A stretch of 64,000 bases of DNA from Luteimonas sp. S4-F44 (lineage in GTDB: Bacteria; Pseudomonadota; Gammaproteobacteria; Xanthomonadales; Xanthomonadaceae), in contig NZ_CP093340.1 of the NCBI RefSeq assembly GCF_022637415.1, positions 1,798,001 to 1,862,000 on the forward strand. The letters run 5' to 3'. Both the position numbers and the translations under genes were made by a program. Each line of letters opens with the position of its first letter. Position 1 is the first letter of the stretch. The notes under the pieces are model-generated. The model worked only from the letters and a program-made list of their open reading frames with translations, had not been told where the DNA came from and made no database searches. Positions 7,350 through 16,334 of this stretch are shown here, in pieces.

Positions 7350-7760
7350 ATGGATGTCAGGGGAGTCGCCGCGGCCGCGGTGTTGTTCGTCGTTTCGGCG
7401 CCGGCCTCGGCCCAGCACGTCTACAAGTGCGTAAACTGGCAAGGCGCGGTCACGTACCAATCCGAACGCTGCCCGGAAGGCCAGCGCATCGATCGCACCT
7501 ACGACACGAACCGCGAGATCGAAGTCGGGGGACGAGTGGTACGCAACTTTGTACCGACCACAGGCGGTTCGACTGACGCGCTTTCCCCCACGTACGGCCG
7601 GGTCATGGATACCAACGGCCGCGTCAAGTCCGACGCTCTCTGCGAACCTGTTCGCGCTGCGGTCAATGGTGCGCGTGGCCATCGCACCATTGAAAGCATC
7701 CGCGCGAATGCGAGCCTCGTATCGCAGCTTTGCAATCACTCGCGCGGCCCGGGCCGCTAG
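7350..7760 (+). CDS. Secreted DUF4124 domain protein (second copy)
   Basis: 136 aa. Signal peptide MDVRGVAAAAVLFVVSAPASAQ, then HVYKCVNWQGAVTYQSERCPEGQR, the DUF4124 core with its paired cysteines, then a variable region and a C-terminal CEPVRAA... QLCNHSRG that mirrors the end of the copy at 2829-3242 (CNHRGIR). The function of the family is unknown; proteins of this type are periplasmic. It is the last chromosomal gene before the prophage. Confidence 0.8.
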   Translation: MDVRGVAAAAVLFVVSAPASAQHVYKCVNWQGAVTYQSERCPEGQRIDRTYDTNREIEVGGRVVRNFVPTTGGSTDALSPTYGRVMDTNGRVKSDALCEPVRAAVNGARGHRTIESIRANASLVSQLCNHSRGPGR

Positions 7761-7938
7761 CGACTGACGGGCGCGGCTGCTTGAGATCAACGGCGACCAC
7801 CACGGTCACGTCGGCTTCCCAATGGCGGACTGTGCGCTCATTGACCCCCAAGAGCGTCGCGCTCGTGAGTCGTCAGCGTTGGGCGTTGCCTGGCATCACC
7901 GAGCTTCGAGCCTGTGGAGCAGATTCTGCGGTCCCTTA

Positions 7939-7966
7939 ATTTCGCATAATGTACATTATGTTCGTC
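7939..7966 (+). mobile_element. attL: dif/attP hybrid site (left end of prophage)
   Basis: The 28-bp site reads ATTTCGCATAA - TGTACA - TTATGTTCGTC. The left arm and the beginning of the right arm match the known bacterial dif layout (11-bp XerC arm, 6-bp centre, 11-bp XerD arm; E. coli CGCATAA / TTATGTT). The 14-bp core AATGTACATTATGT (7948-7961) recurs at 15321-15334. The left arm is chromosomal and the outer right arm is phage. Confidence 0.85.
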
Positions 7967-8024
7967 TCGACACGGCGTCGGCATCGGCGCCGGCACGCTG
8001 GCCAGCCGGCATGGAGATCGGCGC

Positions 8025-8333
8025 ATGCGTGATCGAGCACTGACCGGCCCTTGGGCCGGTTTTGCTTTCCGGTGCGGAAAGCTTGTCACCCCCGAAGGCC
8101 GCGAGTTCGAGCCCGAAGACCTCGCCTATCTGGCGCTGACCGTGGGCATCGCCCAAGAGTGGCGCCGGATGATGCAGGAACACCGCGAGGATCGCGGCTA
8201 TCGACTCGACGGAACCGTCGTCCACTTCCGTGATGCCGTCCGACGCCGGTACGCAAGGCGGGTCTGCATGGTGGACGACTCGGGGCCGGGCCCTGGGCTG
8301 CGCGCGAACGTGCTACGGGCTCGCACGCGCTGA
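8025..8333 (+). CDS. Small phage protein, DUF3653-like
   Basis: 102 aa. It begins MRDRALTGPWAGFAFRCGKLVTPEG and continues with EDLAYLALTVGIAQEWRRMMQEHR, a pattern I associate with DUF3653 proteins of Xanthomonas filamentous phages (probable lysogeny or transcription control). It starts 59 bp inside the left attachment site on the rightward strand. In the circular phage it would sit just after the repressor gene, overlapping its extended end by 8 nt (ATGCGTGA, 8025-8032). In the prophage it is cut off from the repressor promoter and must rely on reading from the chromosome or an internal start. Confidence 0.75.
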   Translation: MRDRALTGPWAGFAFRCGKLVTPEGREFEPEDLAYLALTVGIAQEWRRMMQEHREDRGYRLDGTVVHFRDAVRRRYARRVCMVDDSGPGPGLRANVLRARTR

Positions 8334-8410
8334 CGGCCGAAGCGGTCACCGTGGGCTCCGCCCACACCCGGTGTACGATGCCGCCCAGCACTACAAGGAG
8401 CGATCGCAAC

Positions 8411-8743
8411 ATGGCAAGGAAGCAAACGAACAACGCCTATCAAGCCTGGACCTACATCCTCGCAGGGCTGCTGGCGTTGACCAATGCGGCGTGGTTCCTT
8501 TCAAGCCGAATCAAGGCGAACGACCACGCGGCCGCGCTGGCCGCTGCTACCGCGCCAGCGCCGACACGCGAACGCGTGGTGTACGAATACAGGGAACGGC
8601 CACAGCCACAATCGGCCAACACCCGCAGCAGCTTCCAGAGAACCTTAGCACCGAACGAGCAATGCCGAAGCGGGTTCGTGTTCACGCGCGACGGCAACGC
8701 GTGGGGGGCATCAGGCGAGCGATGCGACCCAACGCTGCTATGA
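8411..8743 (+). CDS. Phage single-span membrane protein
   Basis: 110 aa. A strong AAGGAG ribosome-binding site (8396-8401) precedes ATG 8411. After a polar start (MARKQTNNAY) comes one transmembrane helix (WTYILAGLLALTNAAWFLS), an Ala-rich linker and a C-terminal domain with two cysteines (EQCRSGF, GERCDP). This matches the small convergent ORF that follows the rightward gene in related phages; its function is not known to me. It converges on zot with 19 bp between the stop codons. Confidence 0.7.
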   Translation: MARKQTNNAYQAWTYILAGLLALTNAAWFLSSRIKANDHAAALAAATAPAPTRERVVYEYRERPQPQSANTRSSFQRTLAPNEQCRSGFVFTRDGNAWGASGERCDPTLL

Positions 8744-8744
8744 G

Positions 8745-8760
8745 TCGTGACGCGTCACGA
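8745..8760. repeat. 16-bp perfect palindrome between convergent phage genes
   Basis: TCGTGACGCGTCACGA is fully self-complementary and lies exactly between the stop of the membrane protein gene and the stop of zot. It could act as a bidirectional terminator stem or as a hairpin in the single-stranded genome. No T-run is present on either side. Confidence 0.5.
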
Positions 8761-8762
8761 AA

Positions 8763-9959
8763 TCACCGACTTACCCCCTGCCCCACGTAACGCCCAGTCT
8801 GGATGCCGTAGTCGCCGTAGCTCGGCATCGTCCAGGTCGCACCAGGTGCACCGTTACCACCGCTAGAACGAGCCTCATAGATGCGCTGCGCATCGGCCAT
8901 GTGACGCTGGCCGAGTTGCTCGCCGTCAACGTGATAACCGTCGCCGACGCGGTTGGCGCGGTACGGCTCGTATTGCCCGCCAGAAGCAACGAGAAGGCAC
9001 GCAGCGGTTTCCAGCAGGTAGCGGGTGCCCTGATCAGTGATGCAGCCGCAAGACGGCTTGCCGGGCTTCCCATTCGCATCCAGCCCCTGCCCCGTCGATG
9101 ACATGCAGAACACGCGCGGCGGATCCATCGGGACCTGCAGATGATCGTAGGCGGGCGCGCTCCACGGCTGTGACGGGATTCGCGGCTGGAACCGGGCGAT
9201 GTACTCATCGGGCGTGAGCGTGCGGGCGGCGCGGTCGTCGCCCACCGTCGCTGACGCTCCGTTGGTCGCCGCCGCGTCCGTGGCGGTCACGGCAGGAGGT
9301 GGAAGCGCGTCGGCGTCGCCGCGAAACCGATCACCCATGGAGCCAAACACCCACACGACATACAGCAGGCCAATGGGACCGCCGATCCCGAGCGCCCAGT
9401 AGTACCAGGGCACGCGGCGTTCGGTCGTGTCCATTTCGGTGGACTGGTAGGTGCCCATCGGCCGCTTGGGCAGCTTGCGCCGACGCGTCACGATAGGCGT
9501 CGCCTTCTCGGCGTTCGCCTCGAAGCGGTCGAACTCGCGCAGCTGCACGTAGTCGGTGCCGAACATGCGACGCACGTGCACGTGACGCTCGATCAGATCG
9601 TGCACGAACTGATCGCACTGCTTATCAGGCGACTGGCTGACGAAGATGAAATCCAGACCACGATGCCGATGCTTCGCAAGCTGCTCGACATGCTCGGGCA
9701 CCTTGGCACCGGGCGGGCGCTTCGGCAGCATCTGATGCTCGTAGGCTTCGTCAACGAGGGCGACGGCTCCGTCCGGAAGGAAGTTCATCCAGTCGCGGAA
9801 CTGCTCGGACGTCATCTCCAACACGCCGGTCTTGGCGTAGTCGAATTGCCGGATGTTGCAGGCGTAGACGATGCGGCCCTTGTCCTTGAATTCGAGCAGC
9901 TTCTCGATGGCGTGCAGGGTCTTGCCGTGGCCCGGTTGACCAGTGAACCAGTAAATCAT
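8763..9959 (-). CDS. zot: Zot/pI morphogenesis ATPase
   Basis: 398 aa. Inner-membrane assembly ATPase of filamentous phages (zonular occludens toxin domain). Walker A is GQPGHGKT at residues 7-14, Walker B is GAVALVDEAYE near 64-74, and HRGLDFIFVSQSP follows, typical of Zot. A basic region (RRRKLPKRP) precedes one transmembrane helix (about 185-207), so the ATPase is cytoplasmic and the ~190-residue C-terminal part is periplasmic. The ATG at 9959 is chosen because it gives MIYWFTGQPG, the canonical beginning; an in-frame extension upstream overlaps the pVI gene. In the phage it would work with a host secretin, as no pIV gene is present. Confidence 0.95.
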   Translation of the reverse strand: MIYWFTGQPGHGKTLHAIEKLLEFKDKGRIVYACNIRQFDYAKTGVLEMTSEQFRDWMNFLPDGAVALVDEAYEHQMLPKRPPGAKVPEHVEQLAKHRHRGLDFIFVSQSPDKQCDQFVHDLIERHVHVRRMFGTDYVQLREFDRFEANAEKATPIVTRRRKLPKRPMGTYQSTEMDTTERRVPWYYWALGIGGPIGLLYVVWVFGSMGDRFRGDADALPPPAVTATDAAATNGASATVGDDRAARTLTPDEYIARFQPRIPSQPWSAPAYDHLQVPMDPPRVFCMSSTGQGLDANGKPGKPSCGCITDQGTRYLLETAACLLVASGGQYEPYRANRVGDGYHVDGEQLGQRHMADAQRIYEARSSGGNGAPGATWTMPSYGDYGIQTGRYVGQGVSR

Positions 9960-9961
9960 GG

Positions 9962-10276
9962 TCAGCCCCCCAGCGAGTTGGCGACGCTGGTCGGCACGAT
10001 GAAGGTGCGCCACGCGAGCCGAACGGTCAGCGCCGACAGGATCATCGACATGGCCTTACCGATGCCGATCGCGCCCATCATGTTGAGCGCGTCGGCCGGC
10101 ATGCCGGAGAGGTAGCCCATCACGAAGGCTTTGAGGTTCGGCAGGATCGATTCGAAGGTGACCATGGTCAGCCCGAACGTGCCAAGTACGCGGCCAACGA
10201 TGCCAGCGGCGGCGACCTTCAACGCGCCAAGCAGAAACGTGGCCCCACCCGTGATCCACTCCCATACCTTACCCAT
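9962..10276 (-). CDS. pVI-like minor coat protein (DUF2523)
   Basis: 104 aa. Hydrophobic protein with three membrane segments (FLLGALKVAAAGIVGRVLGTFGL; LKAFVMGYLSGM...MGAIGIGKAMSMILSAL), the size and position of gene VI in filamentous phages, between pIII and pI. It should cap the proximal virion end together with pIII. Its start overlaps the pIII stop by 8 nt (ATGGGTAA, 10269-10276), indicating translational coupling. Its stop lies 2 nt before the zot start. Confidence 0.85.
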   Translation of the reverse strand: MGKVWEWITGGATFLLGALKVAAAGIVGRVLGTFGLTMVTFESILPNLKAFVMGYLSGMPADALNMMGAIGIGKAMSMILSALTVRLAWRTFIVPTSVANSLGG

Positions 10277-11876
10277 ATTGCCTCCCCAGCAGGATTTGAA
10301 GCGCGGTGTACGCGCCGAAGATGAGGATCAGCGCCCGCATGATCCGAACGATGTCGCACCACTGCGGCACGTCCTGCGTACCGATGACGCGCCCCATAAG
10401 CGAGAACGACATCTGCGGGCAGGTGCCGCCGCCGACCAAATCGGACTCGTCTAGCAGGCTTGGGCCAACACGCAGACCAAAGCGCGTTGCGCCCTCGACA
10501 TCCTCGCCATCGTCCTGGCCGCCGGGCGTTTCCGGCGCGTCGCCCTTCGTCCATTCGGGTTGATTCTCGCCGCAGATTTCGGCACGCATGGCACGCAGCT
10601 TCACCGCGTTGGCGTCGTCGCCTTCAACGTGGAAAGCGGACTTGCAGTCGCCGACATCGCCGGAGACCTTGACGGCATTGCCAGCCTCGACTGCGCAACG
10701 CGTGGCCCAAGCTTGGGTCGCCACCATTTCGAGCATCGGGTCGGAGACGATGGGGCGCGTATCGCAGTCGCCGCCGCCGCTGGCACTGCCCTTGTCGTCG
10801 TCATCGTCGTCAGTGTCGGTGCTGGCGTCGTCTGGGCGCCCTTGATTCCCACTGCCTGCGTTAGTGCCGTGGATAGTCGTGTAATTGGTCGTCGTGGTCG
10901 TGGTCTTGGTGCCCTGCCCCCCGTTGCCATCACCTGTCGTCGTCGTGGTCGTGATCGAATCACCCGACTTGCGCAACGTGTCGCCGCTGGGCAGATCAAG
11001 CTTGGGCTGGATAGCTTGCTCGCCGGCATTGCGCACCTGCGCAACAGGGCCATCGGTCTTGGTGCCGGTCTCGCCGGGCTTCCAGCAAATCTGACGTCCC
11101 TTAGCTGACGTGGCGCAGTGATCGCCGTTGCGACGAACACAGTAGGTTTGACCACCCGGCCCGGGCGTGCAGACCTGCGGCTTGTCCTCCTTCACTTCTT
11201 CAAGCGTGTTGGCGCCTGGAATGAAGACATCGGGCACATCGGACGTGCACACGCCGGTCATGCGGAATTCGCCGTTACACAGCTGCAAGCCGGTGTCGGA
11301 ATTGATGACGCTGCACGAGCCCGTGCCGGGCGTCATCGTGAGCATGCAGCCACCTGTACAGCGCGAGTGGAACGGCTTCGAGGTCTGAACGCCGAAGCCG
11401 CCGCCGGGCTTGTTGTGGGCGTCGCATTCCTCGGGCGTGGGGCTGCACTGGCCGTTCGACATCATGACGGCACCACCGTCGCAGGATTCGCGTCGGCAGC
11501 TTTGCGTCTCATCGTTCCAGGTGCCGCCGTCGGGGCATTCAGTCGTCCACGCACGAAACGTGTTACCTGCTAACCCATCAGTATCGTAAAAGCAGATAGC
11601 AGTACCAGCCGAGCCGCGCACATCGAAATAGCATGGCGCGCGGGGCGGCTTAGTACCCTTCGCGGTCGCTACGCGCTGGGCCTGTTGCATGGCGATCTGA
11701 CGGGACGGACACAGCGGCGGATTGCCACCACCGTCTGCATTCGAGTAACAGGCCGTGAACTGATCCTGCGCACGCGCAGGCGCGAACCACGACAGCGCGG
11801 CGTAGACGATGGCGCCGACGACGATCCAGACAACACGCCGGACTGCCGTGCGGGCAATGAAGTTGCCCAGGCGCAT
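10269..11876 (-). CDS. pIII-like adsorption (attachment) protein
   Basis: 535 aa. An N-terminal signal peptide ends at about ARA (36). A large Cys-rich receptor-binding region follows, then a Thr/Gly/Asp-rich flexible linker (a run of Thr followed by GDGNGGQG, then Asp repeats), a C-terminal domain and a final membrane anchor (ALILIFGAYTALQILL). This is the pIII/TspB-like layout: the ectodomain binds pilus and co-receptor on the next host, and the C-terminus closes the virion. ATG 11876 overlaps the stop of the preceding 20-codon gene by one base (TGATG); GTG 11879 is possible. The long repeat-prone linker may vary between isolates. Confidence 0.9.
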   Translation of the reverse strand: MRLGNFIARTAVRRVVWIVVGAIVYAALSWFAPARAQDQFTACYSNADGGGNPPLCPSRQIAMQQAQRVATAKGTKPPRAPCYFDVRGSAGTAICFYDTDGLAGNTFRAWTTECPDGGTWNDETQSCRRESCDGGAVMMSNGQCSPTPEECDAHNKPGGGFGVQTSKPFHSRCTGGCMLTMTPGTGSCSVINSDTGLQLCNGEFRMTGVCTSDVPDVFIPGANTLEEVKEDKPQVCTPGPGGQTYCVRRNGDHCATSAKGRQICWKPGETGTKTDGPVAQVRNAGEQAIQPKLDLPSGDTLRKSGDSITTTTTTGDGNGGQGTKTTTTTTNYTTIHGTNAGSGNQGRPDDASTDTDDDDDDKGSASGGGDCDTRPIVSDPMLEMVATQAWATRCAVEAGNAVKVSGDVGDCKSAFHVEGDDANAVKLRAMRAEICGENQPEWTKGDAPETPGGQDDGEDVEGATRFGLRVGPSLLDESDLVGGGTCPQMSFSLMGRVIGTQDVPQWCDIVRIMRALILIFGAYTALQILLGRQYG

Positions 11877-11938
11877 CACACGCCCTCAAACGCGATCCAC
11901 GCCGCGCCGCAAATCGCGATGATGACGAAGTAACCCAT
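11876..11938 (-). CDS. 20-residue hydrophobic microprotein (pVII/pIX-like candidate)
   Basis: 20 aa: MGYFVIIAICGAAWIAFEGV. It sits between the coat gene terminator and pIII and its stop overlaps the pIII start by one base (TGATG). Apart from the final EGV it is a single membrane span. Ff phages carry two ~32-residue hydrophobic minor coat proteins (pVII, pIX); this shorter ORF has the right character and position but could also serve mainly to couple ribosomes onto pIII. It is small enough to be missed by ordinary annotation. Confidence 0.5.
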   Translation of the reverse strand: MGYFVIIAICGAAWIAFEGV

Positions 11939-11950
11939 GACGTTCTCCCC

Positions 11951-11981
11951 GAAAGAAACCGGGCCCCACGTGGAGGCCCGG
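11951..11981 (-). terminator. Rho-independent terminator after the coat gene
   Basis: On the minus strand CCGGGCC / GGGCCCGG forms a GC-rich stem followed by TTTCTTTC. It lies 22 bp beyond the pVIII stop, the classic place of the strong terminator that keeps coat protein mRNA abundant and pIII low. Confidence 0.75.
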
Positions 11982-12002
11982 AAGGTGGAACAGGTCAGCC
12001 GA

Positions 12003-12248
12003 TCAGCGCGCCGACTTCTTGATGTACGTCCAGACGAGCAGCGCGCCGATCAGGATCGCCACGGCGGCGAAAATCTGGCCCATTTCCGCCTTGCCGCCGG
12101 ACACCTCAGCCGCGACTGCAGCGGCCTCCCCCTCGGCCAAGGCAAGGCCCGACGCTGCCATGCCGGTGACGCCGGCCGCGATCTTGCCGCCCGTGGTGCG
12201 CAGCGCGGAGGCAGCGCGATCGGTGAAACGAACGATGTTGCTCTTCAT
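12003..12248 (-). CDS. Major coat protein pVIII
   Basis: 81 aa precursor. The long leader (about 38 residues, basic start, ending SGLALA) is followed by a mature ~43-residue helix with acidic N-terminus (EGEAAAVAAEV), hydrophobic centre (IFAAVAILIGALLVWTYI) and basic C-terminus (KKSAR), exactly the build of filamentous phage coat subunits that line the DNA. A GA-rich stretch (GAGAGAGAGAG) just upstream of the ATG serves as an unusual but strong ribosome-binding site. It is followed by a terminator. Confidence 0.95.
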   Translation of the reverse strand: MKSNIVRFTDRAASALRTTGGKIAAGVTGMAASGLALAEGEAAAVAAEVSGGKAEMGQIFAAVAILIGALLVWTYIKKSAR

Positions 12249-12293
12249 GGTTGCTCTCTCTCTCTCGATAACGGGCGGAATTGCCCAGGTGGA

Positions 12294-12515
12294 TCAGAAA
12301 TGCCCAACACGCGCGGCTCGGAAGACCATTCGCGCTTTTAAGCCCAACGCCCAGCACCCCACGATGGAGAACGCGACGATGGAGCCATCAGCCGCCGACA
12401 GGTACGGAATCACCGGCTGGTGGTACGGGAGATGCACCGGCACCGCGCACGTGCCGTCGTGCCGCACATGCTCGGCGGCGCAGGCGACGACGTAGAACGG
12501 GGCCGGGTCACTCAT
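12294..12515 (-). CDS. Small phage protein with one membrane span
   Basis: 73 aa. It starts 3 nt after the stop of the ssDNA-binding protein. The N-terminal half is polar with two cysteines (FYVVACAAEHVRHDGTCAVP); the C-terminal half holds a membrane helix (IVAFSIVGCWALGL) and a basic tail (KARMVFRAARV). Position (after gene V, before the coat gene) is that of the minor coat genes VII/IX in Ff, so a minor virion role is plausible, but I do not recognise the family. Confidence 0.6.
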   Translation of the reverse strand: MSDPAPFYVVACAAEHVRHDGTCAVPVHLPYHQPVIPYLSAADGSIVAFSIVGCWALGLKARMVFRAARVGHF

Positions 12516-12518
12516 GGG

Positions 12519-12800
12519 TTACGCCTTCTTCGGCGGGTCGAGCGGACCGACCAGCCGCACGCGACGGCCGAACTTCAAACCGCCGTATTCGTTGACCTCG
12601 ACACTGGCAAGGTCGAGTTGATAGAGGCCCGGCGGATAAGGGCGCTGGTCGTCGTCCAACTGCACATTGAACGGCAGAGGGAAGTCCTCGCCGGAATCGA
12701 TAGCGGCCTTCTGCTCGCGAAAATGAATCTCCTTGCGGTCCCCACGCGCGGGAATGGTGCGGGTGAGAACGGCGTCGGACTTGACGATGATATGGCTCAT
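12519..12800 (-). CDS. Single-stranded DNA-binding protein (gene V type)
   Basis: 93 aa. Small OB-fold-sized protein ([31 protein letters not shown]... [28 protein letters not shown]) in the place of gene V, right after rep. It should coat the newly made viral strand and switch replication from double-stranded to single-stranded product. The start ATG overlaps the rep stop (ATGA, 12797-12800). An in-frame upstream start at 12821 lies inside rep and is not preferred. Confidence 0.85.
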
Positions 12801-13660
12801 GAGATTGCCTCTAGTTTCCAAGCGATGACCCGGCCCTTGTCGAAGTAGACGCGCCAGGGCGAGGGCCAGAATTCGCCTGTGCGTTTGTCGGCGTAACCGC
12901 CGGGAACCTTGCGGATGTCAGCATCGACGCCGAGCGCGTCGCGGGCGTCCTGGGGAGATTTCCACCAGCGCAGTTCGCGCTTGGATTCGTCGTTGAGGCC
13001 ACCCACGCCGTGCGTGCGGAAACCCTTGGGAAATGCTTCAGCCATTGCGCCGCAGAACTTGGACGCGTACTTGGCGAGGTAGCCGACCGCGTTGCGGGCG
13101 CGCTCAATCTTGGTCATGCCATGAGGCCACCACCCTGCCCTGTCCGCCTTCGGGAAGTAGTAGCCGCGCGGAATCCAGATCAACAGGTGGTAGTGGGGTC
13201 GAAGGGCTTTGGTGAGTTCTCCGACCCAGAGATAACGGAACAGCGGACGCCCATGCCCCTTTCGTCCTGCAACTTTATGGAAGAAGCGCCGGACGCCTCG
13301 AACCAAATTGCTAACGTCGCGAGGGCTGCTGTCACCTCCCGCTCTGTAGGTCGCCGTGAGCATGTACCACGCACCACGCTGCGAGCCTTTGCGCGCTTCC
13401 TGGTCATGCAATCTCGCTCCTGTAATTACGCTCTTCCGGAGGCGAGTAGCCCGGATGCGGTTCTGATCGAGCTCGACCGAAACGCGGCCGATACGTGGCC
13501 CTGGGCCACTTGTTGAAGAAGGGACAAGCCCAAGGCCGGCCGCTTCGCGGCCAGCCTTCGACGCGAACGGAAGGTTCGTCGCCACAAGCGCAGACGCGTC
13601 GGCAGTGCGACGCGCCCAAGCGGCGTCGATGACTTCGGGCGTGAGGCAACCATCAGCCAT
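12797..13660 (-). CDS. Rolling-circle replication initiator (Rep, gene II type)
   Basis: 287 aa. HUH-endonuclease-like initiator of filamentous phage replication. Visible: the metal-binding motif HYH at 156-158 in [13 protein letters not shown], preceded by LTATYR and [12 protein letters not shown], and the catalytic tyrosine region [12 protein letters not shown] with Y194 and Y198. It nicks the double-strand origin and starts plus-strand synthesis. I chose ATG 13660, which overlaps the stop of the upstream gene by 8 nt (ATGGCTGA) and is preceded by AGGCGG; a longer in-frame extension upstream reads as a shadow of the neighbouring gene. Confidence 0.9.
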
Positions 13661-14282
13661 GACGCACCGCCTGAATCGAATCGACCGCGGTGGATGCAGC
13701 CAGGTCAACCAGCCACAAGGCGAGCGCGGGCGGCGTGTGTTCTCGCTCCGCCGGGCCAATCTCCTTGCGCGCCCTGGATCGATCACGGCCGGACCATAAG
13801 CCGCAGACGCGCTCGGCTTCGCCCAGGCTCAACGGGAATGCAGGGATCGATGAAGGATCAGCGCCGACGATGTAGAGCCACGTGCGCTTCTCGGCGCGAT
13901 GGCCCCACCACTTCTGGGAGACCGGCATCACCCAGCCGCCGAAGCTGTCGCGATCGGTCGATCCAGGCCGAGGCAACGCGAGCTCACGAAAAAGCGCGGA
14001 GCCCGACGGATGTTCAAGCACGCCACCAAACCGACGCACTTGGTCAATTGCCCATACGGCAAGATCGCGCTCGCCAGGGCGAGGCTTGGCGAACGTGCGC
14101 ATGCGGGACCAGGATCGGCACGGCGGATGTGCGACGACCGGCATGCCACCGAGCCAGGTGCGCGCGTCGCGATCGATGTCGTAGACATCGCAACGAGGGT
14201 CGGACTTGTAGACCGAATCGCAGCGAGCGAACAGCACGGCAACAGCCGGCCGCGCCTGGATGAAACAGGCACCGTCAGCCAT
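13653..14282 (-). CDS. Methyltransferase-like phage protein
   Basis: 209 aa. It carries pieces resembling C5-cytosine methyltransferases: PPC at 53-55 within [13 protein letters not shown] (catalytic-loop type), EHP at 90-92 in [10 protein letters not shown] (in the place of ENV), KRTWLYIVG near 132-140, and a C-terminal [16 protein letters not shown] like the closing motif of that fold. A clear SAM motif I (FxGxG) is missing, so catalysis is uncertain. It lies directly upstream of rep in the replication operon, suggesting a role in phage DNA modification or protection. ATG 14282 (MADG) overlaps the preceding stop by 8 nt, the same arrangement as rep. Confidence 0.65.
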
Positions 14283-14469
14283 GACGTGCCGCCTTACGAG
14301 TGTGAATCGCACGAATGCGACGGCGGCGAGCGTGCGCGTGGAGACGGTCGTACCAGCAGCCGAAGTCGGTGTAGAGCAGCACCATGCCGCCGATGGTGAT
14401 TATCCAGAGTTGGACGAGTACGCGGCCGAGTTCTTGAATCTCGGACGGCTGAACGATGGCGCAGGTCAC
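14275..14469 (-). CDS. Small membrane protein of the phage early operon
   Basis: 64 aa. One membrane segment (VLVQLWIITIGGMVLLYT) and a basic, His/Arg-rich tail ending in RKAARHG. Both ends are coupled: the start overlaps the upstream stop by 4 nt (ATGA), and the stop lies within the first codons of the methyltransferase-like gene. I do not recognise the family. Confidence 0.55.
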   Translation of the reverse strand: MTCAIVQPSEIQELGRVLVQLWIITIGGMVLLYTDFGCWYDRLHAHARRRRIRAIHTRKAARHG

Positions 14470-14645
14470 GACTGCACCGCCGCGCGCTCGCGCTCACAGG
14501 ACAGCCAGACGCCGCGCCATTCGGCGACGCGGGGGTCACCGAACAGATCGCGGTTGGAACCTGGACGGGCGTTATCGGCCAGGAGGCCGGCGTAACGTTC
14601 GAAGGCCGCATCGGCGGCGGCGTCGATGACGTGCTGCATGGTCAT
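14466..14645 (-). CDS. Small soluble phage early protein
   Basis: 59 aa. Reads [29 protein letters not shown] then LFGDPRVAEWRGVWLSCERERAAV. No known domain. It begins inside the stop of the 46-residue ORF and ends overlapping the next start (ATGA, 14466-14469). An in-frame extension upstream to 14798 exists but would replace the well-formed 46-residue gene. Confidence 0.55.
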   Translation of the reverse strand: MTMQHVIDAAADAAFERYAGLLADNARPGSNRDLFGDPRVAEWRGVWLSCERERAAVQS

Positions 14646-14782
14646 GCGCGCACCCGACGAACGCAGCACGGCAGCGTGCGGGTCTCGAAAGCGGCGGCGT
14701 AGCGGCAAGCGTTGCCGTACGAACGATGCGGCTGCCCTTCCGCCTGCCAAGCGTCGTTGACGTAGACGTAGACCTGATACAT
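14642..14782 (-). CDS. First ORF of the leftward phage operon (46 aa)
   Basis: 46 aa: begins MYQVYVYVNDAWQAEGQPHRS and ends CCVRRVRA, with three cysteines. It starts the tightly packed leftward operon and its stop overlaps the start of the next gene (ATGA). Too short for most gene finders. It lies about 90 bp after the leftward promoter. Function unknown. Confidence 0.55.
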   Translation of the reverse strand: MYQVYVYVNDAWQAEGQPHRSYGNACRYAAAFETRTLPCCVRRVRA

Positions 14783-14812
14783 GACGAATCCCCTGCACCC
14801 CCTACCCGGTAT

Positions 14813-14846
14813 CCCGGTCACCCTCGGGGGGTGCCGAGGGGCCGGG
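14813..14846. repeat. Nested hairpin in the phage intergenic region
   Basis: The inner stem CCCTCGG (14821-14827) / CCGAGGG (14834-14840) has a 6-nt loop and an outer stem CCCGG (14813-14817) / CCGGG (14842-14846). It is in the only sizeable intergenic region of the phage, where filamentous phages place the packaging signal and complementary-strand origin, so it is a candidate for either. Confidence 0.45.
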
Positions 14847-14848
14847 AA

Positions 14849-14927
14849 TTAGGTCTAAGACCTAACGCGGGCGACGATGAGGGGAATTGCCTAATCTGTC
14901 AAGGGGGAATATTGTAATTTGCCTAAT
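14849..14927. promoter_or_regulatory. Divergent phage control region with repressor-type operators
   Basis: The perfect palindrome TTAGGTCTAAGACCTAA (14849-14865) is followed by two direct copies of TTGCCTAAT (14887-14895 and 14919-14927, 32 bp apart), so four TTAGG half-sites in all. A leftward promoter with consensus -35 TTGACA (minus strand, 14897-14902) reads toward the early operon. A rightward one (-35 TTGCCT 14887-14892, 17 bp, -10 TATTGT 14910-14915) reads toward the repressor. The repeats overlap both, as expected for repressor and autoregulation sites. Confidence 0.6.
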
Positions 14928-14958
14928 TTCCCGACGAACGGTCATCCGGAGGCCTGTC

Positions 14959-15336
14959 ATGACGTACGCAGCGCAACTCATCGATGCGGTCAAAGAGGCA
15001 AGCGGGCTTTCGTCTGATCGCGAGCTGGCCGACGCTCTGGGCGTGAAGCCGCCGACGCTCAACCAGTGGAAGCACAACAAGGGCTCACCCATGCCACCCG
15101 AGCGAGTGATGCAGTTGTGCGAGATGGCGTCTATTGCAGACGCCGGCCCGTGGCTCGTTGGCGTCCAGGCGGACGCGGTACGGATCACGGCCGTTCGCCG
15201 TGCGCTGGAATCAGTCTTGGACCGAGCCCGCCCGAGCGTGGCGAAGGTCGCGACGCTCGGGGCCGCTTCGCTCGTCTACTGCGGCCTCGCCGCGCTTCAA
15301 GCCGCTGAAAGCGCGGGACGAATGTACATTATGTAA
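14959..15336 (+). CDS. Phage repressor, Cro/CI-like HTH with DUF3693-type layout (prophage form)
   Basis: 125 aa. A strong CGGAGG (14947-14952) fixes ATG 14959. The N-terminal HTH lies at about 17-40 (LSSDRELADALGVKPPTLNQ), with MPPERVMQLCEMA after it, as in DUF3693 repressors of Xanthomonas phages. The C-terminal part has a hydrophobic helix (VATLGAASLVYCGLAAL). The last codons (GRMYIM) are the att core itself, and the stop TAA comes from chromosomal DNA. Joined to the left end of the phage, the frame would run 23 more residues (FVSTRRRHRRRH...) to 8032. So this is the integration-truncated form of a ~148-residue phage protein. Confidence 0.8.
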   Translation: MTYAAQLIDAVKEASGLSSDRELADALGVKPPTLNQWKHNKGSPMPPERVMQLCEMASIADAGPWLVGVQADAVRITAVRRALESVLDRARPSVAKVATLGAASLVYCGLAALQAAESAGRMYIM

Positions 15337-15339
15337 GAA
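15312..15339 (+). mobile_element. attR: attP/dif hybrid site (right end of prophage)
   Basis: Reads CGCGGGACGAA - TGTACA - TTATGTAAGAA. It shares the 14-bp core AATGTACATTATGT with attL. The left arm is phage, the right arm chromosomal. The restored chromosomal site would be ATTTCGCATAA TGTACA TTATGTAAGAA, a good dif. The core overlaps the last codons of the repressor. Confidence 0.85.
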
Positions 15340-15431
15340 CCCGTTCAGGCGGTAGGAGTCCAGGCAATCCCGTTCTATCCACTTCCCGCAGCCTGCGGCC
15401 ACCAGTTCGGTCGCTCTGCGAAGCGCGCACG

Positions 15432-16334
15432 TCATTGCACCTCGGTTGCGACCTGCTCCACACGCGAGAGCTTGTCGGGATTGCGCATGATGAAGATGTC
15501 GGCCAGGTGCCCGGCGTCGTCATAAGAAAAGGACGCCGCCGCAGTCACTGTCCCTGCGGGGTCTCGCAGAATCAGGCCCAGGTGGCCGTTGAAGTTCGCG
15601 CGCTCGAAGGTGTAGTCGGCCCACCAGACATGCAGGCCCGCTGTGATGAACCGCAGCACTTCGCCCTCGCCGACCATGATCCGGCGCGCCGCGGGTACTT
15701 TGCCGCCGCCGTCGGCGGCAAGGCGCACGTCTCGCGACAACAGCAACGCAAGCTGCTCGGTCTGTCCGTCGCGGACGGCACGCTCAAAGGCGATCAGCAG
15801 TTCAGTCTGCTGCGCCGGCGGTGTGATGTGTCGCACGCGCGCCTGCCCGACGTGCGCATGGGCGCGGGAAACCAGTTTCCGGCACGCCGGTTCCTGCATG
15901 CCCAGTGTCGAGGCGATGTCCGCATAGTCCATGTCGAAAATTTCGTGCAGCAGATAGGCCGCGCGTTCCTTCGGTGTCAGCCGTTCGAGCAGCAATAGGA
16001 AGGCCGACGTCAGTGTCGACGCCAGTTCGGCGGCCGCCTGTGGCTCGATCTCGTCGGCGATGCGCAGCGGCTCGGGTAGCCAGGTGCCGACGTAGTCGAC
16101 ACGGCTGCGATGCGCATTGCGCAGCAGGTCCAGGCAATGTCGGGTGCAGGTGGTGGTCAGCCAGGCGCCAGCGGATGCGATCGCTGCACGATCGATGCGT
16201 TGCCATTTCAGGAAGGTGTCCTGCACGGCATCCTCGGCATCGGCCCGCGAGCCCAGCAGGCGATATGCCAGGCCCAGCAGGCCGGGCCGGGCGTCGTCGA
16301 AGGCGGTCATGCTGTCGTCGGGCCGGTCGGTCAT
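15432..16334 (-). CDS. ECF41-family RNA polymerase sigma factor with SnoaL-like C-terminal domain
   Basis: 300 aa, longer than a plain ECF sigma. Sigma2 (about 10-75; [26 protein letters not shown]), sigma4 (about 110-165; LTPKERAAYLLHEIFDMDYADIASTLG) and a SnoaL-like domain (about 185-300). The three marker motifs described for ECF41 are present: WLPEP in the linker, DGGGK, and NPDKL near the C-terminus. In this family the C-terminal domain regulates the sigma in place of an anti-sigma, and the target is typically the neighbouring carboxymuconolactone decarboxylase gene, which is immediately upstream here (1 bp gap). A truncated near-identical copy lies at 21944-22198. Confidence 0.93.
   Translation of the reverse strand: MTDRPDDSMTAFDDARPGLLGLAYRLLGSRADAEDAVQDTFLKWQRIDRAAIASAGAWLTTTCTRHCLDLLRNAHRSRVDYVGTWLPEPLRIADEIEPQAAAELASTLTSAFLLLLERLTPKERAAYLLHEIFDMDYADIASTLGMQEPACRKLVSRAHAHVGQARVRHITPPAQQTELLIAFERAVRDGQTEQLALLLSRDVRLAADGGGKVPAARRIMVGEGEVLRFITAGLHVWWADYTFERANFNGHLGLILRDPAGTVTAAASFSYDDAGHLADIFIMRNPDKLSRVEQVATEVQ

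Follow-up and report, generated by a model that had tools for sequence, protein, structure and literature searches.

The attachment site of a dif-integrated filamentous prophage in Luteimonas sp. S4-F44 lies inside its own repressor gene, and this core-inside-repressor layout is general among dif prophages located by way of their DUF3653 gene. The architecture is real and conserved, and it is partly anticipated in print. With modest confidence, we favor the reading that the control operon straddling attP acts as a self-locking switch driven by Xer recombination, a reading that would join the observed layout, frames, conservation, tag-like signature and hairpin to inferred differences in protein stability, activity and expression. 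A functional switch is likely, with the tail of the window's own phage lending it the least support.

The window, meaning the whole 64,000-nucleotide stretch analyzed here, holds one such prophage between two copies of a 14-bp core, AATGTACATTATGT, which occurs exactly twice (7948–7961 and 15321–15334). At up to two mismatches there are three matches in the window against 0.03 expected, the third being attL on the reverse strand. The element and its main landmarks are:

7948..15334, dif-integrated filamentous prophage in single copy, core to core with a span of 7373 bp, recognized by the core repeat and inovirus genes
7948..7961, plus strand, attL, the att core at the left junction, with a chromosomal XerC arm TTCGCATAA
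15321..15334, plus strand, attR, the att core at the right junction, with an XerD arm that runs on into chromosomal AAGAA
12800..13660, minus strand, rolling-circle replication initiator (PF23343, 3.3e-27), divergent from the repressor
14881..14931, strand not given, degenerate 18-nt repeats of the GGGGAATTGCCTAAT type preceding the repressor as candidate operators

The host chromosomal dif site is confirmed as the target of the prophage. Exactly one dif-like match at up to three mismatches occurs in 44 of 52 genomes of the genus, 29 of those 44 ending TTATGTAA; in the S4-F44 genome (3.69 Mb, one contig) the sole match ends TTATGTTC and is attL, the left junction. Zot/pI, DUF2523, ssDNA-binding and REP_ORF2-G2P proteins are encoded on the minus strand, and the plus strand carries the repressor at the right end and the DUF3653 gene at the left. 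The inovirus core families PF05707 (Zot), PF02303, PF23343 and PF10734 all score above their Pfam cut-offs. Having flanking dif cores, a single chromosomal dif and inovirus core genes, the element qualifies as an XerCD/dif-integrating inovirus (IMEX). No integrase was found among the ten prophage proteins scanned; with none next to the repressor, the dif cores point to host Xer. A promoter scan of 14700–15500 and 7700–8400 found none. Between the DUF3653 gene and zot lies a further ORF on the plus strand (8351–8743), whose translation, scanned from 8411, drew no match from Pfam or PHROG at E 0.01.

Integration leaves the prophage with a shortened repressor and detaches the tail of the free-phage form:

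14959..15336, plus strand, repressor in its prophage form, 125 aa (phrog_638 transcriptional regulator, 5.5e-20), with an N-terminal Cro/CI-like fold
7962..8032, plus strand, free-phage repressor tail of 23 residues plus TGA, detached in the prophage, its frame read from the left core

The prophage repressor ends GRMYIM followed by TAA (15334–15336), in which T is the final core base and AA is chromosomal; because dif is the target, this stop is the ATG-TAA of dif's own XerD arm. Read in the repressor frame, the left core (7949–8032) gives MYIM, FVSTRRRHRRRHAGQPAWRSAHA and a stop, for a whole long form of 148 aa, and the ATG of the DUF3653 gene at 8025 overlaps the tail stop (8030–8032) by 8 nt. 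The two prophage ends were read separately, not joined; both share the whole core, so attP is the same whatever the crossover point inside it. The initial annotation had placed the att core in frame at the repressor end with a TAA completed by the chromosome, and had extended the open frame 23 residues beyond the core into an 8-nt overlap with the gene at 8025; both claims are borne out by these stretches (14959–15336 and 7949–8032).

The N-terminus of the repressor is predicted to be of Cro/CI type, with a best Foldseek probability of 1.00, yet no E-value reaching 0.001. The DUF3693 family (PF12472) gave no match to the window repressor at E 0.01 and lies above cut-off in 6 of 6 other repressors scanned. 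Scanning genome contigs yielded relatives at two loci, in Luteimonas sp. RC10 and L. suaedae (best-segment identity 81% and 66%), and a protein search of IMG/VR returned 23 pattern matches and zero relatives.

Deposited phages share the layout. Among 50,697 phage records, 13 match the repressor (tblastn, E 0.01) and 22 match the XacF1 DUF3653 protein (E 0.001). We read 13 distinct phages: SMA6, SMA7 (both proviral records), SMA9, PSH1, SHP2, Cf1c, Cf2, XacF1, XaF13, phiLf UK, phiLf Taiwan, phiXv2 and fSU1. All 13 hold a dif-like core within the regulator ORF, which extends 27–43 codons from the core start, and a search among them for free relatives ending at or before GRMYIM found none. The long repressor form predicted from the window exists in nature: in SMA7 and SHP2 the ...GGMYIMFK... 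frame extends some 24 residues beyond the core and is followed by the DUF3653 gene. Twelve of the 13 phages have a DUF3653-coding stretch in this place, that of XaF13 without gene annotation; in fSU1 it is located elsewhere, and the core there is without attestation as attP. The depositors of phiLf UK, phiXv2, Cf2 and XaF13 themselves annotated attP inside the regulator gene. The Xanthomonas and Stenotrophomonas phages (XacF1, Cf1c, phiLf, phiXv2, Cf2 and XaF13; SMA6, SMA7, SMA9, PSH1 and phiSHP2) thus resemble the window phage in having a dif-like core in the regulator gene and DUF3653 sequence next, whereas the window phage stands apart in its Luteimonas-like host, a repressor 30–39% identical in the matched part, and an Arg/His tail.

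Prophages from the same bacterial family follow the same plan. Because the contig scan for the repressor had given two loci only, the survey was anchored on DUF3653: 140 loci were fetched, 139 of them taken from a large subset of the DUF3653 matches and one (L105) around a repressor match, a choice of loci that says nothing on dif phages without DUF3653. With the window, these make 141 loci, of which 81 match a repressor profile seeded partly from the first batch of loci, 69 hold a dif-core pair, and 67 hold the pair beside a repressor match. The 74 left out comprise 60 that lack a repressor match, of which two (L071, L165) do have a dif pair, and 14 that match the repressor profile and show no dif pair in the fetched stretch. 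Odd loci were kept among the 67, namely one with a very long tail (L113), two with run-on or broken ends (L091, L168) and three with long shared junction repeats (L097, L142, L159). Two loci whose right end lies off the contig (L178, L180) were left out of prophage-end counts, leaving 65; the L180 contig starts and stops at the core, so the integrated state is putative there. The repressor frame reaches the core in all 67 dif prophages, window included, and ends before it in none. Across phages, all three frames are used to read the core (MYIM, HYAK and TLCE types); the layout has thus persisted through changes of coding phase.

What the repressor gains on integration varies from locus to locus. 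The prophage-form stop lies at most 1.5 codons from the core in 23 of 65 prophages, and in the XerC-side class the prophage extension is often long, with a median of 25 codons. At 12 of 67 loci a DUF3653 gene lies within 1 kb past attR (L075, L119, L120, L133, L136, L137, L139, L150, L154, L170, L177, L186), which indicates a neighboring prophage or remnant at that junction, as also at L102 and L118. The shortened repressor frame enters a foreign tail in L102, L136 and L186, so integration does not always yield a tail-less repressor.

A comparable arrangement is known from mycobacteriophages, whose integration-dependent immunity was reportedly described by Broussard et al. in 2013. The window attP likewise sits inside the repressor frame, and the integrated form is likewise shortened by a junction stop. 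According to a paper on that system, attP lies in the repressor, the viral form is 20–35 residues longer, the stop arises at the junction, and viral repressors often carry a C-terminal -AA tag, with some members lacking it (PMC8092301). Mycobacteriophages are tailed dsDNA phages with their own integrase, whereas the window kind has ssDNA, relies on host Xer and dif, and pairs a membrane-type repressor with a severed Xer-activator-like gene. The phage integrase beside the repressor by which integration-dependent immunity is recognized is absent from the ten prophage proteins scanned.

For filamentous relatives, the phiRSS0 and XacF1 papers had already put the switch idea in print. ORF13 of the Ralstonia phage phiRSS0 shrinks from 156 to 130 aa upon integration, and the two forms were proposed to differ in function; like the window phage, phiRSS0 has a dif core in the 3' end of its regulator gene (Yamada 2013, PMC3816273). 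In XacF1, attP is located in ORF12, which is split upon integration via XerCD/dif (Ahmad 2014, PMC4076744; 2017, PMC5666396). When the 5' part of ORF12 was deleted, integration came later and the prophage lost its stability (PMC5666396), an experiment that does not separate an effect of the tail from that of the rest of ORF12. The initial annotation had proposed integration itself as a genetic switch: the architecture holds, and the novelty does not, since regulator truncation and the idea of a resulting change of function had been published for phiRSS0 and XacF1. Judged by titles and abstract openings among the papers listed, we found no published tie of filamentous phages to ssrA-tagged repressors or integration-dependent immunity. 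The text consulted on the Xanthomonas and Stenotrophomonas phages offers neither the C-terminal tag nor the Xer-activator reading.

The gene severed by integration probably encodes an activator of host Xer recombination. Its protein-coding stretch overlaps a second feature:

8025..8333, plus strand, DUF3653 gene (PF12375, 36.5 bits against a gathering cut-off of 22.4), overlapping the tail stop by 8 nt
8040..8063, plus strand, LTGPWAGF codons forming a terminator-like hairpin with T-rich codons after it, recognized by fold and codon conservation

The earlier label "DUF3653-like" named the right family and was too weak, the score being above the curated cut-off. The window protein also matches NCBIfam NF040522, the VC1465 family Xer recombination activation factor, over profile positions 57–104 of 111, about half of the model; the E-value is 2e-10 and the score 40.7 bits, short of the 70-bit cut-off. 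All 26 aligned DUF3653 members match NF040522 at E 0.01 or better; as the best value is 4.8e-11, all 26 are implied to fall below its cut-off. VC1465 is a protein of TLCphi that we take to be XafT. XafT of the satellite phage TLCphi is reported to be a XerD-activating factor of a dif-integrating element of Vibrio (PMC9765430). DUF3653 proteins align to the VC1465 model, but below the family cut-off and with about half of the model matched. A PDB fold search with the DUF3653 structure model, itself weak (pLDDT 71, pTM 0.37), gave no match at E 0.001. The gene starts close upon the tail: among the cases placed, as many as 61, the gap from tail stop to DUF3653 start is -4 in 23 and -8 in 7. If the DUF3653 protein acts like XafT, integration would cut the activator from its promoter through the very reaction that it promotes, and the prophage would be locked. 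This putative Xer-activator link is a new element.

The first codons of the DUF3653 gene appear to serve a second purpose. LTGPWAGF comprises the most conserved residues of the protein, and its codons, ACCGGCCCTTGGGCCGGT-TTT, make up a perfect stem with T-rich sequence behind it; the 45-nt hairpin folds at -22.9 kcal/mol (z -3.3). Of 67 prophages and 9 phage records, 76 sequences together, 48 have the motif, and 38 of these sequences are distinct. All eight pairs are kept in 33 of the 38, the Gly codon is GGT in 36 of 38 motifs compared with 37 of 279 in the rest of those genes, and Phe is TTT in 29 of 34 motif codons against 7 of 54, all in related sequences whose counts are not independent. 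Frozen synonymous codons together with kept pairs seem to reflect selection on the nucleic acid besides the protein. Most simply, the hairpin would be a transcription terminator or attenuator located behind the repressor tail, and ribosomes moving from the tail into DUF3653 might hold it open; the XaF13 depositors placed a terminator annotation near this site. The candidate dual-coded hairpin is likewise a new element.

A third of the lost tails end like a proteolysis tag. Deduced from the left junctions of the 67 prophages, the tails run 25–117 residues from the core start (median 36), form 41 clusters and differ widely between groups. Ends of the form [LIVAM][LIVAM]A occur in 23 of 67 tails, compared with 9 of the 587 other ORFs at these loci (p = 5e-18), in families ending KDEIAA/KDELAA, TEIAA/TELAA/KEIAA, PALAA, GALA and AVLA/ALLA/PVLA/MLA; the host tmRNA tag is ANDDNYALAA. 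Deposited phages match the deduced ends, with KDEIAA in SMA9 and PSH1 and DTEIAA in XaF13. The enrichment holds without the 11 tails fixed by a -7, -8 or -10 overlap (23 of 56, p = 5e-20), per tail cluster (11 of 41, p = 3e-9) and per cluster minus the seven with a -8 overlap (11 of 34, p = 3e-10). Tails with a -4 overlap are tag-like in 15 of 31 cases against 5 of 144 ORFs under the same last-base constraint (p = 2e-9), and 8 of 25 tails without overlap have a nonpolar-Ala end (p = 4.5e-8). One of 65 visible prophage-form ends is tag-like, that of L102, whose shortened frame continues into a second tail-like stretch. In four tail families pN/pS is 0.34–0.61 for pairs of at least 55% identity and 0.35–0.71 over all pairs, the pairs not being independent. 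Tails with non-Ala ends number 24 of 67; the Cf1c/XacF1 group ends RTGQ or RTG. Going by their sequence, these ssrA-like ends in a third of the relatives' lost tails are a third new element.

The window's own tail looks different. It ends WRSAHA, close to the WRSVHA of Cf2, and TGGAGATCGGCGCATGCGTGA there holds a likely ribosome site (GGAG) and the next ATG. With a likely Shine-Dalgarno sequence and an overlapping ATG carried by the last codons, the terminal Ala is explained without a degron. Its tail family has a pN/pS of 0.80 over six ungapped pairs, all below 55% identity and not independent, which suggests no clear selection and little sign of constraint. A degron in the window's own tail was set aside, the -8 overlap fixing its last residues and the tail family being poorly conserved. 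The Arg/His run recurs in none of the other 66 deduced tails; W/R amphipathic tails occur in many of them.

The repressors also share a predicted membrane-type helix just ahead of the core, in the window as follows:

15247..15297, plus strand, hydrophobic repressor segment, residues ~97–113, with a Kyte-Doolittle 17-residue maximum of 1.85

By hydropathy, 64 of 67 repressors have, ahead of the core, a 17-residue stretch whose mean is 1.6 or higher. An AxA motif resembling a signal-peptidase site lies at or after the helix end in 49 of 67, and a membrane-type helix is unusual for a phage repressor. Net charge of the tail is positive in 64 of 67 (median +4), and the median is 0 both for the 57 prophage extensions of under 60 aa and for the stretch between helix and core. 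XacF1-type tails hold a second hydrophobic stretch.

Taken as a switch, the arrangement would work as follows. In the circular phage, translation of a repressor with an HTH and a membrane-type helix would continue across attP and add a C-terminal tail. The stop of that tail overlaps the start of a gene for a probable Xer activator, and the first codons of this gene hold a terminator-like hairpin. Recombination between attP and dif would swap the tail for whatever follows dif, in the window an immediate TAA from dif itself, and would part the DUF3653 gene from the repressor promoter. The phage-form repressor would be weak or short-lived while the Xer activator is made; the prophage form would be stable and the activator off, so that the prophage is held and kept immune. 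For the third of relatives with ssrA-like tail ends, proteolysis would be a concrete means; for the window subgroup the means may be proteolysis, membrane topology or mere loss of the coupled gene. In favor of a switch are a layout shared by all 67 prophages and all 13 phages, the tag-like enrichment, pN/pS below 1 in four families, the 26 of 26 NF040522 matches and the XacF1 ORF12 deletion. Against it stand a window tail whose WRSAHA end is explained without a degron, the 24 of 67 non-Ala ends, the 12 of 67 loci with DUF3653 past attR, the long XerC-side extensions and NF040522 scores below cut-off; a tail situated past a membrane-type helix may, moreover, present an end that does not face ClpXP.

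The Xer activator might be all that matters: integration would cut DUF3653 from its promoter and excision would stop, the two repressor forms being alike and the tail carrying nothing but a ribosome site and start. The coincidence of the window tail's last codons with GGAG and ATG 8025, the scant constraint on its family, the tight linkage of tail stop to DUF3653 start (-4 in 23, -8 in 7) and the match of all 26 aligned members to the Xer activation factor model agree with this account. It does not predict nonpolar-Ala ends where no overlap forces them (8 of 25 tails), their near absence from prophage forms (1 of 65) or pN/pS below 1 across about 20 codons in four tail families, more than a ribosome site needs, and we consider it rather doubtful. 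That the core-inside-repressor layout is a mere accident of a compact genome, with attP by chance at the frame end and tail and truncation both functionless, is highly improbable. Inovirus genes are densely packed, the 67 tails fall into 41 clusters and the window tail family is poorly conserved, but an accident sits badly with a frame open through the core, in different phases, in 67 of 67 prophages and 13 of 13 phages, and with the tag enrichment and the low pN/pS of four families.

Membrane topology offers another route to a switch. A truncated repressor might insert its helix with the C-terminus outside, and a positive, W/R-rich or hydrophobic tail might force the other topology, altering activity or stability. 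The pre-core helix (64 of 67) and the positively charged tails (median +4 versus 0) make such an effect a live alternative, as does the second hydrophobic stretch of XacF1-type tails. The case is built on hydropathy, however, and the AlphaFold model of the repressor is of low confidence past residue ~90 (pLDDT near 52), and we judge this explanation unlikely.

The self-locking Xer switch, stated at its fullest, would mean that integration-dependent immunity arose independently in ssDNA filamentous phages of the Lysobacteraceae. Their circular form would make a proteolysis-marked repressor and, via a ribosome-sensitive attenuator, an Xer activator; one host-catalyzed crossover would then remove the degron and sever the activator, turning repressor on and recombination off. 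We advance this fuller version tentatively. If it is true, a large group of filamentous phages would decide on lysogeny through the very act of site-specific recombination, carried out by a host housekeeping enzyme, and integration-dependent immunity would have a second, unrelated origin. The uncharacterized DUF3653 family would gain a role, which would help to explain prophage stabilization by XacF1 ORF12. Some of these phages, XacF1 among them, alter the virulence of the host (PMC4076744).

Two further kinds of arrangement involve the same genes. Pairs of DUF3653 matches lie ~250–315 bp apart on opposite strands in genomes G370, G401, G432, G436, G419, G425 and G399, perhaps from two prophages at one dif in opposite orientation. 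In the PHROG 34897 profile (279 aa) the first part aligns to the repressor and the last part to DUF3653, and the PHROG 25084 profile likewise combines a part that aligns to the repressor with one that aligns to DUF3653, a hint of natural fusions across attP.
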